From Planctomycetota bacterium (lineage in GTDB: Bacteria; Planctomycetota; Phycisphaerae; Phycisphaerales; SM1A02): a stretch of 64,000 nucleotides of DNA. The notes beneath the pieces are model-generated. The model did not search any database and was not told the origin of the DNA. It worked only from the letters and a program-made list of their open reading frames with translations. The translations under genes were made by a program, and so were the position numbers. The stretch covers positions 1 through 64,000 of the forward strand of contig JAIOPG010000006.1 of NCBI GenBank assembly GCA_021414025.1. Reading direction: 5' to 3'. Positions 16,087-18,945 of this stretch are shown here, one piece after another (within the stretch, counting starts at the first letter, position 1; each line of letters starts with the position of its first letter).

Positions 16087-17052
16087 TCAACCTTCGTCGG
16101 CGCGCATGCGAACGATCTCGTCGCGCATCTGGTCGAGTACGCGCATCTTGGCGTGGCGGATGGCCGCCTCGCTCATGCCCAGATCACTGGCGACGCTGGC
16201 GATTGGCTCGCCGCGCACGCCGTAGCGGTCGAAGGCCTCGAGCGTCTTGGGCTGGATGTTGGTCTTCACCTTCTCCAGCGCGCGGCGGACCAGGTGCTCG
16301 GTCCACTCGCGATCCCACGCCGCGCTCAGGTGGCTCTCTCGCTCGGGCGGATCGAAATCCTCGGGCAGGCCCACGCCGGGGCGCTTGCGCCGATGTCGGT
16401 CGCGGATCGCGTTGAGGGTGATGCGCTTCAGGTAGCCGCGAAAGCGCCCCTTCGCCGGGTCATACTCGAAGACGCGCGACTGGCGGAAGAAGCCGAGCAT
16501 GACATCCTGGAGAATGTCATCCACTTCCTGCGGCTTGGCGCCGGCATTGCGGGCGAAGCCGGCGATCACGGGGCCATACATCGCGGAGAAGTCACTCCAG
16601 CCGAGCTGGCGGTCCAGCGTGCCGTCGGCGCGCAGGCGAAGCAGCATGGTGGCGCTGGTCTGGTAGGGGTCCGTTGATTCGGCCGGCGGCGGAGGGACTT
16701 CGGGAATGTGATGATCGCCGTCGCCTTCGCCGGTGGTGCGGACCACAAAGGTCCACGGGCCGATGGAGAGCACATCGCGATCGTGCAGCAGGACCTTCTC
16801 GTTGGCCTCAAGGCGGACACCGTTGAGCAGCGTGCCCAGCGAGCTGGTCGCGTCCTCGATGGTGGCGCCGGCGCGGTCGTTGCGAAGCACCGCGTGGCGG
16901 CGCGAGACGGATTCATCGTCGAGCACAAGCCCGGAGTCGTTCGCCCGGCCGATGATGCAGGTGGCGGAGCCGTCCAGGTGCACGCCGGGAGAGGGCGGCC
17001 CCTGGGCGCGGATGAGCGAGACAAACCCGGTTTTCTTCCGCGCGACGCTCAT
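16087..17052 (-). CDS. FHA domain fused to an ECF-like sigma factor
   Basis: This protein has about 321 residues. Residues 25-105 form a forkhead-associated domain with the phosphothreonine-binding marks GRAND, SVSRRHA and GTLLNG. A Pro-rich linker follows. Residues 135-315 are a sigma-70 family module: region 2 (VDDILQDVMLGFFRQS, FRGYLKRITLNAIRDRHRR) and region 4 (IASVASDLGMSEAAIRHAKMRV, a helix-turn-helix), with no region 3. FHA domains bind phosphothreonine peptides, so promoter use could depend on phosphorylation. The gene follows a Ser/Thr kinase gene on the same strand, 81 bp away, and is probably co-transcribed with it. ATG 17052 is preferred; an ATG 8 codons upstream is possible. Confidence 0.9.
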   Translation of the reverse strand: MSVARKKTGFVSLIRAQGPPSPGVHLDGSATCIIGRANDSGLVLDDESVSRRHAVLRNDRAGATIEDATSSLGTLLNGVRLEANEKVLLHDRDVLSIGPWTFVVRTTGEGDGDHHIPEVPPPPAESTDPYQTSATMLLRLRADGTLDRQLGWSDFSAMYGPVIAGFARNAGAKPQEVDDILQDVMLGFFRQSRVFEYDPAKGRFRGYLKRITLNAIRDRHRRKRPGVGLPEDFDPPERESHLSAAWDREWTEHLVRRALEKVKTNIQPKTLEAFDRYGVRGEPIASVASDLGMSEAAIRHAKMRVLDQMRDEIVRMRADEG

Positions 17053-17133
17053 GGATGCGTGGAATCTTGCACGCAACGGCGCGGCGATGCAAGCGGCGAA
17101 TTCATGAGGCCGTTGGATGGGCCGCCGCGATGT

Positions 17134-18945
17134 TCACCGACCGGGAGCGGCGGCGGGGGGTTTCGGGATCGAATCGGCGAGCGATTGAATCTGCTTTGCA
17201 AGATCTTCCTGCGGTTCTTGCGCCTGGAGCAGCCAATTCTGCGCCCGCATCAGCAGGTCGGCGGCCTCGGCGGTGCGACCCTCGTCGATTTCGATGCGGG
17301 CGAGTTCAAGCAGCGACCGGGCCACATCGTCTGCATCGGAGGGCTGCTCCGCTTCGAACTGCTTCTCGGCGGTCATGGTGATGGAGTGCGCGTCGGCGAA
17401 GCGACCGGTGGCACGGTAGGACTCCGCCAGGAGAAGCTCGGCCTCCGCGAGCAGACGCGGCTGGCCCCTCGATTGCAGCAGGTCGATGGCGCGGGTGAAT
17501 TCCTGCGTGGCCAGTTCGTCGTGTTTGAGCGAAGTCCAGAGGCGACCCACGGCAACGCGGGCCCGCGCTTCCATGACCGGGTTGTTGCTGAGTCGGATGC
17601 CGACAAGGCGGCTGGCTTCGGTCAGGATCTCCTGGGTGGTGCGCGGTGGGGCGCCGGGCGTGGCCACGATCTCGGTGAGCAACTCAGTGACAAAAAGAAA
17701 GGCGTCTTCGGCATTGCGGGCGGAGATCTCCGACCGATCCTTGGCGGCCAGCGCGCGGGCGCGCTCCGAGAAGGCGGTCACCACGCTGGCCGCGATGGCG
17801 GCAAGGGCGACAGTGGTCAGGATCACGGCGACGAAATTGTGGCGCAGCAGTCGATCCAGTCGGCGCAAGGGAGAATCGGGGCGCGCCTGCACGGATTCGC
17901 CGCGGCGGAAGCGTTCCAGGTCCTGGGCGAGGGCCAGCGCCGAGTCATAGCGGCCGCGCGGATCGCGGCTGAGGCAGCGCGCGATGATGGCGTCCAGGTC
18001 GCCGCGCAAGATCGAGACGATCTCGGCGGGTGAAGCGGATCGATTTTTTGCCGCGAGCCTCGCCTCCTGGCGCGGCAGTCGCGCGAACATGAGGTGCGCC
18101 GGGCGCGGAGCGGAGTCGTCCGGCGCGGCATCAGCCAGCAGGCGCAGCATCACGGCCCCCAGAGCGTAGATGTCCATGCGCGGGTCGGCCTCGACGGCGC
18201 GAAGGTCGCGGGCCTCAGGCGCCATGAAGCTGGGCGTGCCCACGAAGGCTCCGCTGCGCTCGTCGGGATTCACCGGATCGAACACGGCGCGGGCCACGCC
18301 GAAATCGATCACCTTCACCACCGGCTCGCCGGCATCAAGCGAGACCAGGATGTTGGAGGGCTTCAGGTCGCGGTGAATCACGCCGCGCTGATGCGCGTGG
18401 TGCACGGCGCGGCAGATCAGCGCCATCAGGTCGATCCGTTCGCCAAGTGAAATCCCCGCCACGTCGCACGCCTGCGTGACGGGCGAGCCGGCGGCCAGCT
18501 CCATCGCAAACCAGGGGCGGCCGTCGGCGGATTCGCCTGCATCGAAAACCTTGACCAGGCCGGGATGGTCCAGCAGCGCCACCATGCGCCGCTCGGTTTC
18601 GAAGCGGGCGCGGCTCGCCGAATCCAGGCGATCGGGCCGGAGAATCTTCAGGGCCACGGAGCGGCGCAGCGGCTCATCCTGCTCCGCGAGCCAGACGATC
18701 CCGAAGCCGCCCTCGCCGAGCACGCTGCGCAGAAGGTAGGGGCCGATCCGGACCTCCGTCGCGGCTTCATCGCGGCTGAGCATGCTGACCGCCGCGCTGC
18801 CGGATGTGGGAAGCATTTCCAGGGCCTTGGACAGGGCGGATCGATCCTGGTGCAGCAATTCCTGAAGCGCGGCGACGCGGCGCGATGGGGGAAGCGACGC
18901 AACCCGGCGCACCGCTTCCTCGGCTGTGGGAACCTTCATCGCCAT
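17134..18945 (-). CDS. Membrane Ser/Thr protein kinase with TPR-like C-terminus
   Basis: This 603-residue Hanks-type kinase shows the Gly-loop GEGGFGIV (77-84), the catalytic Lys in VALK (100), the catalytic loop HRDLKPSN (191-198), DFG (about 214-216) and MAPE in the activation segment. One transmembrane helix (about 370-392) separates the cytoplasmic kinase from a C-terminal region of helical pairs (TQEFTRAIDLL, AEAELLLAESYRATGRFADA) that looks like tetratricopeptide repeats and would lie outside. The start at 18945 is chosen because an upstream extension would overlap the divergent SDR gene. Its likely partner is the FHA-sigma protein encoded just downstream. Confidence 0.93.
   Translation of the reverse strand: MAMKVPTAEEAVRRVASLPPSRRVAALQELLHQDRSALSKALEMLPTSGSAAVSMLSRDEAATEVRIGPYLLRSVLGEGGFGIVWLAEQDEPLRRSVALKILRPDRLDSASRARFETERRMVALLDHPGLVKVFDAGESADGRPWFAMELAAGSPVTQACDVAGISLGERIDLMALICRAVHHAHQRGVIHRDLKPSNILVSLDAGEPVVKVIDFGVARAVFDPVNPDERSGAFVGTPSFMAPEARDLRAVEADPRMDIYALGAVMLRLLADAAPDDSAPRPAHLMFARLPRQEARLAAKNRSASPAEIVSILRGDLDAIIARCLSRDPRGRYDSALALAQDLERFRRGESVQARPDSPLRRLDRLLRHNFVAVILTTVALAAIAASVVTAFSERARALAAKDRSEISARNAEDAFLFVTELLTEIVATPGAPPRTTQEILTEASRLVGIRLSNNPVMEARARVAVGRLWTSLKHDELATQEFTRAIDLLQSRGQPRLLAEAELLLAESYRATGRFADAHSITMTAEKQFEAEQPSDADDVARSLLELARIEIDEGRTAEAADLLMRAQNWLLQAQEPQEDLAKQIQSLADSIPKPPAAAPGR

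Follow-up and report, generated by a model that had tools for sequence, protein, structure and literature searches.

A planctomycete membrane Ser/Thr kinase encoded beside an FHA-bearing ECF sigma factor: a possible EmbR-like phosphorylation relay

Introduction

How an outside signal might reach a sigma factor is the question raised by two adjacent genes in the 64,000-nucleotide stretch of DNA analyzed here (the window), one encoding a membrane Ser/Thr kinase and the other a sigma factor fused to an FHA domain. A preliminary description of this DNA proposed a direct pathway, in which the kinase is activated from outside and a phospho-Thr, on the kinase or on a third protein, recruits the FHA domain, with the sigma factor released or activated without an anti-sigma factor. 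The pair suggests a short route from an outside signal to gene activation, and our preferred reading is an EmbR-like relay from membrane kinase to sigma factor, in which the FHA domain would dock on phospho-Thr made by the kinase and the sigma factor would be switched on. We hold this reading tentatively, as almost evenly balanced between being right and being wrong.

In Mycobacterium tuberculosis, the regulator EmbR likewise bears an FHA domain and is encoded beside a Ser/Thr kinase, PknH (PMC9239209, PMC4601284), and it requires its FHA domain both to interact with this operon kinase and to be phosphorylated by it (PMC9239209). Among ECF sigma factors, planctomycete groups ECF59, 61, 62, 217, and old ECF60 lie beside kinases (PMC8999054, PMC8103513). 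Because kinase-linked ECF factors outside group ECF43 keep the acidic core-binding motif, their activation is unexplained (PMC8999054). There is also no known mechanism by which N-terminal extensions control ECF factors; planctomycete groups old ECF87-89 carry such extensions, and their mechanism is reported as unknown (PMC8103513). The FHA-sigma family joins these two questions, kinase-linked activation and control by an N-terminal extension, and it names residues to mutate (R44 and S58 of the FHA domain, and T140) in addition to the neighboring kinase.

Results

The locus encodes an intact kinase and an FHA-sigma fusion

The gene coordinates (Table 1) match the layout given in the preliminary description, with the kinase gene followed on the minus strand by 81 bp and then the FHA-sigma gene.

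Table 1. Features of the kinase/FHA-sigma locus (positions in the window; residues in FHA-sigma numbering for the FHA domain, T140, and the sigma region)
Feature	Position	Strand	Details
Transmembrane Hanks-type Ser/Thr kinase	17134..18945	-	603 aa; ATG 18945, stop ends 17134
Inter-gene gap, 81 bp	17053..17133	-	genus-conserved block GCTTGCAT...CAxxATT before sigma ATG
ECF sigma factor with N-terminal FHA	16087..17052	-	ATG 17052, 321 aa; stop ends 16087
FHA domain	16759..16956	-	GR 43-44, SRRH 58-61, N85
T140 codon, Thr directly before sigma2	16657..16659	-	position computed from reading frame
ECF sigma2-sigma4 region	16117..16590	-	acidic region 2.2 motif E184-V-D-D187 kept

The kinase contains a Pkinase domain (PF00069, residues 73-336, E 1.7e-36 in a Pfam search) with an intact catalytic set (GEGGFG 77, VALK 97, HRDLKPSN 191, DFG 214, and APE 242), and its single strong hydrophobic stretch, at about residues 371-391, corresponds to one membrane helix. 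It has all of the features of a Hanks-type Ser/Thr kinase (VAIK Lys, HRD, DFG, APE, and one membrane helix) and looks active. Residues 437-592 form helical hairpins in an AlphaFold model (pLDDT ∼90), and Pfam gives a weak TPR_12 match to residues 500-570; this C-terminal region is predicted to be a TPR-like outer domain. The model as a whole (pTM 0.36, with a poor kinase part) is too weak for the arrangement of the domains. The motifs, the membrane helix, and the modeled hairpins bear out the earlier claim of a membrane Ser/Thr kinase with an outer helical-repeat domain. Among solved kinases, 9eed is the nearest in sequence (3.2e-53); its entry title names PknS of Xanthomonas citri, and PknS phosphorylates the ECF factor EcfK (PMC13147305).

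The only domains found in the partner protein by Pfam search are FHA (PF00498, residues 41-106, 1.1e-16) and sigma (Sigma70_r2, residues 166-232, 4.5e-12, over the cut-off), and the ECF model TIGR02937 matches residues 163-320 (3.9e-14, 52.6 bits against a cut-off of 42.9 bits). These matches confirm the claimed fusion of a sigma factor to an FHA domain, and the sigma part, which has sigma2 and sigma4 only and matches the ECF profile, is that of an ECF (group 4) factor. An alternative TTG start at 17076 is also open in this frame and gives 329 aa.

By sequence, the FHA domain has the motifs for phosphate binding (GR, SxxH, and N). The phospho-Thr-binding residues R44, S58, R59, and H61 show no variation in the fusions (67/67), with N85 kept in 61/67 and T82 in 53/67. 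Solved relatives of the domain include the FHA domains of FhaA, GarA, DgcB, and EmbR, and the phospho-Thr readers FhaA and EmbR are among the closest. The domain looks functional and of the canonical phospho-Thr-reading type, with binding predicted.

The genes flanking the pair encode a glycosyl hydrolase, an SDR, a DUF1579 protein, and proteins without a family match; none was found to match an anti-sigma family. The earlier proposal of a pathway without an anti-sigma factor fits this neighborhood, and the gene order typical of anti-sigma-controlled ECF factors, with the anti-sigma gene beside the sigma gene, is not present. In the 81-bp gap, no Shine-Dalgarno sequence was seen ahead of the sigma ATG, and a consensus scan found no sigma-70 consensus promoter; transcription of the sigma gene may start at a promoter of its own and yield a nearly leaderless mRNA. 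A comparison within the genus showed that the conserved block of the gap ends ∼10 bp ahead of the sigma ATG.

Region 2.2 is acidic, and T140 is a candidate switch residue

The ECF43 pairs (EcfP/PknT of Vibrio and EcfK/PknS of Xanthomonas) resemble this locus in having an ECF gene beside a Hanks kinase gene and no anti-sigma factor. In ECF43, the acidic region 2.2 motif is typically missing and a phosphorylatable Thr is found there, whereas FHA-sigma keeps the acidic EVDD and, unlike ECF43, carries an FHA domain. The locus therefore shares the adjacent Ser/Thr kinase with ECF43 but not the uncharged region 2.2 with its phosphorylatable Thr. This comparison bears on the idea that the kinase restores charge in region 2.2, as PknT does on EcfP, with the FHA domain being incidental. 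The ECF43-like adjacency (PMC8999054) and the relationship to PknS would suit such a mechanism, but it does not fit a sigma factor that keeps its acidic core-binding motif (D187 in 67/67 fusions, and D or E at position 186 in 66/67), and the FHA residues are invariant. We disfavor charge restoration and consider it highly improbable.

A different threonine, T140, is located in the stretch linking the FHA domain to sigma2. It is found without exception (92/92) in relatives with and without an FHA domain, is never replaced by S, D, or N, and is missing from the other alignable sigma factors of the same genome. T140 could serve the kinase-linked clade as a phosphosite, or it could be a helix N-cap (T-x-x-S/D); because Ser, Asp, and Asn are wholly absent at this position, the phosphosite reading is modestly favored, and T140 is our best candidate for a switch residue. 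A site on the sigma factor itself is an alternative to the kinase or third-protein sites of the preliminary description.

The same properties of T140 would be expected if the kinase phosphorylated this or another linker residue and the factor's own FHA domain bound it, within one molecule or in a dimer. Binding would alter the access of sigma2 to RNA polymerase, and the FHA domain would be an added reader of an older phospho-switch. Precedents are DgcB, whose FHA domain reads a phosphopeptide of its own N terminus (PMC6733907), and intramolecular FHA inhibition (PMC4601284). However, T140 is older than the FHA domain and its role may be structural, as a helix cap, and the AlphaFold model of FHA-sigma (pTM 0.35) is unreliable in its interdomain arrangement. 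We regard self-binding as unlikely. A related proposal, which is conceivable though doubtful, is that an ancestral kinase-controlled T140 switch gained an FHA domain, as a cis reader or as a dock, giving a direct phospho-relay between membrane and promoter that needs no anti-sigma factor and differs from EcfP charge restoration.

The fusion arose among kinase-linked planctomycete sigma factors

A kinase gene is directly upstream of the FHA-sigma gene in 10/10 close orthologues. These are 62-82% identical and come from MAGs, planctomycete ones among them and several with lake titles; the window itself is from a freshwater planctomycete. Among the matches listed, the full fusion is present in ∼60 of the 181 family genomes, spread over 15 genera, and outside the family the listed matches (397 class genomes and 294 phylum genomes) cover the sigma part only. 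Rare fusions may occur outside the family, with none among the matches listed.

When a tree of the sigma part was built by a quick method, 64 FHA-bearing rows formed one group that also took in a single divergent FHA-less row. FHA-less relatives are within 300 bp of a kinase gene at 21 of 25 loci, a figure that may be biased, as the 25 are best matches and not a random sample; the usual order is sigma and then kinase, and 2 of the remaining 4 loci sit at contig ends. FHA-less relatives beside kinases are also found in other families of the class. The nearest FHA-less relatives thus share the kinase neighbor that marks the planctomycete STPK-linked ECF groups, and these patterns place the origin of the FHA fusion within known planctomycete sigma factors adjoining kinases. 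Compared with those groups, an FHA domain has been added, and the kinase gene of this genus is upstream, not downstream.

Kinase adjacency recurs in several arrangements

Synteny across the window's genus covers the UPRT, DUF1579, glycosyl hydrolase, sigma, kinase, and SDR genes. Because the surrounding gene order is conserved as well, adjacency within the genus is weak evidence when taken alone. Beyond this block, the kinase gene precedes the sigma gene in the genus and in L086, overlaps it in the same order in L115, is divergent from it in genus g7, and lies behind the second sigma copies of g7 and g37. Mapped onto the tree, adjacency takes 8 changes, and the partner kinases are spread over several clades. 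The own-genus kinases have the L086 kinase as their sister, and the sigma factors of these loci are related in the same way. Because kinase adjacency recurs in several arrangements, it is not merely inherited gene order.

FHA-sigma genes without an adjacent kinase gene are found in g11, g32, g38, g40, the main copy of g37, and others; in the five genera named, a kinase is usually absent within ∼7 kb. No full-length, orthologue-grade match to the window kinase was found elsewhere in the unlinked genomes tested, in which the best kinase matches stop near residue 400-500. The genomes with unlinked FHA-sigma genes carry 9-27 kinases. A survey of FHA-sigma fusions next to kinases, as suggested in the preliminary description, thus shows adjacency recurring in several arrangements, and five genera in which the main copy has no adjacent kinase.

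These five genera and the genus-wide synteny would be expected if the two genes were neighbors through conserved gene order alone, with no functional link. This explanation is at odds with the recurrence of adjacency in different orientations and with kinases of different clades, with the kinase neighbors seen beside FHA-less relatives elsewhere in the class, in other families, and with L086, which keeps the SDR-kinase-sigma order despite the loss of the adjoining glycosyl hydrolase gene; we consider it very unlikely. In the window's genome, which has 6 Pkinase matches and 4 FHA matches, 14 sigma70-type genes are over the cut-off, and only FHA-sigma is directly beside a kinase gene. The chance of a given gene touching a kinase gene is ∼0.5% (6 kinases and ∼2,400 genes, the latter an estimate from the 2.8 Mb genome); with the pair kept in all 10 close orthologues as well, the pairing exceeds chance.

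The FHA domain could instead bind a phosphorylated third protein, such as a scaffold or an unlinked anti-sigma factor, which other kinases might phosphorylate as well, so that the neighboring kinase would be one input among several. Conservation of the FHA residues extends to loci lacking an adjacent kinase, and the many kinases of the unlinked genomes and the several clades of partner kinases are consistent with a third protein. However, in the loci read, no third gene is evidently common to the differing kinase-linked arrangements, and we judge this explanation quite unlikely.

A single kinase-FHA-sigma polypeptide, considered for a 1017-aa open frame (G069/L084), was rejected because no kinase domain is encoded upstream of the FHA domain and the frame enters from the contig start.

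A proposed relay and its relation to known systems

In the EmbR-like relay that we prefer, the outer TPR-like domain would sense a signal and so activate the kinase, which would make a phospho-Thr on which the sigma factor would dock through its FHA domain. The docked sigma factor would then be switched on, most likely via phosphorylation of T140 or a nearby residue, where sigma2 starts. The relay draws on catalytic and phospho-Thr-binding residues that are intact, on an origin among kinase-linked sigma factors, and on the recurrent adjacency. We counted against it the unlinked genera, the lack of an orthologue-grade kinase match elsewhere in the unlinked genomes tested, the genus-wide synteny, an activation loop without a Thr cluster, and T140 as a possible helix cap. 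In this scheme, we infer that the neighboring kinase is the maker of the phospho-Thr, where this residue sits, that the effect of docking is activating and not inhibitory, and that the system has no separate anti-sigma factor.

The activation loop of the own-genus kinases is DFGVARAVFDPVNPDERSGAFVGTPSFMAPE, with a conserved Thr only at the structural GTP position; unlike these, the g7 kinases carry TTMQTTMGQLIGT. Because only the structural GTP Thr is kept, docking on the activation loop is unlikely in the genus, and the FHA docking site, if docking is on the kinase, is probably elsewhere. The pathway of the preliminary description is partly supported, by the active-looking kinase, the canonical FHA domain, the kinase-linked clade of the sigma factor, the lack of a nearby anti-sigma gene, and the recurrent adjacency; docking on the activation loop is unlikely in the genus, and adjacency is not universal.

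The EmbR FHA domain is a detectable homologue of that of FHA-sigma; beyond the FHA and kinase domains, the two systems share no homology. The FHA domain is C-terminal in EmbR, an OmpR/SARP-type activator, whereas here it is N-terminal on an ECF sigma factor. The locus is thus an EmbR-type pair, in that an FHA-bearing DNA-binding regulator is encoded beside a kinase, but FHA-sigma, with only FHA and sigma domains, is not a member of the EmbR family proper, which has OmpR-type DNA-binding and BTAD domains. Old ECF87-89, compared by review description only, likewise have an extension ahead of sigma2. We found no description of an FHA-ECF fusion in the literature searched, where partial coverage means that absence is no proof. 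Kinase-sigma pairs themselves are known, and it is the built-in phosphate reader on a kinase-linked sigma factor that appears to be undescribed.

Other FHA-sigma loci and FHA proteins

A second, divergent FHA-sigma lineage is encoded directly upstream of a ∼1,110-aa kinase, often overlapping it, in two genera (L103, L105, L107, L095:10434-11567, and L122:6928-7896). In g36 and g8, a small soluble-looking kinase (∼280 aa) is encoded ∼1.4 kb upstream of FHA-sigma (L109-L112, L114, L117, L119, L159, and L160), and in three genomes (L087, L120, and L123) a related kinase gene is separated from the FHA-sigma gene by 2.8-3.4 kb, in divergent orientation. At L093 and L097, an FHA-sigma gene without an adjacent kinase is directly behind a sodium:solute symporter-like gene, a possible alternative partner.

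The window's genome has no PP2C_2 phosphatase match and five of the SpoIIE type. Its three other FHA proteins, encoded on other contigs or far from the window, look by sequence like an FHA-GAF-SpoIIE phosphatase (L001), an FHA-GAF-HD-GYP protein (L003), and an FHA-PilB-type ATPase (L004), and the first of these also matches the SpoIIE phosphatase family.
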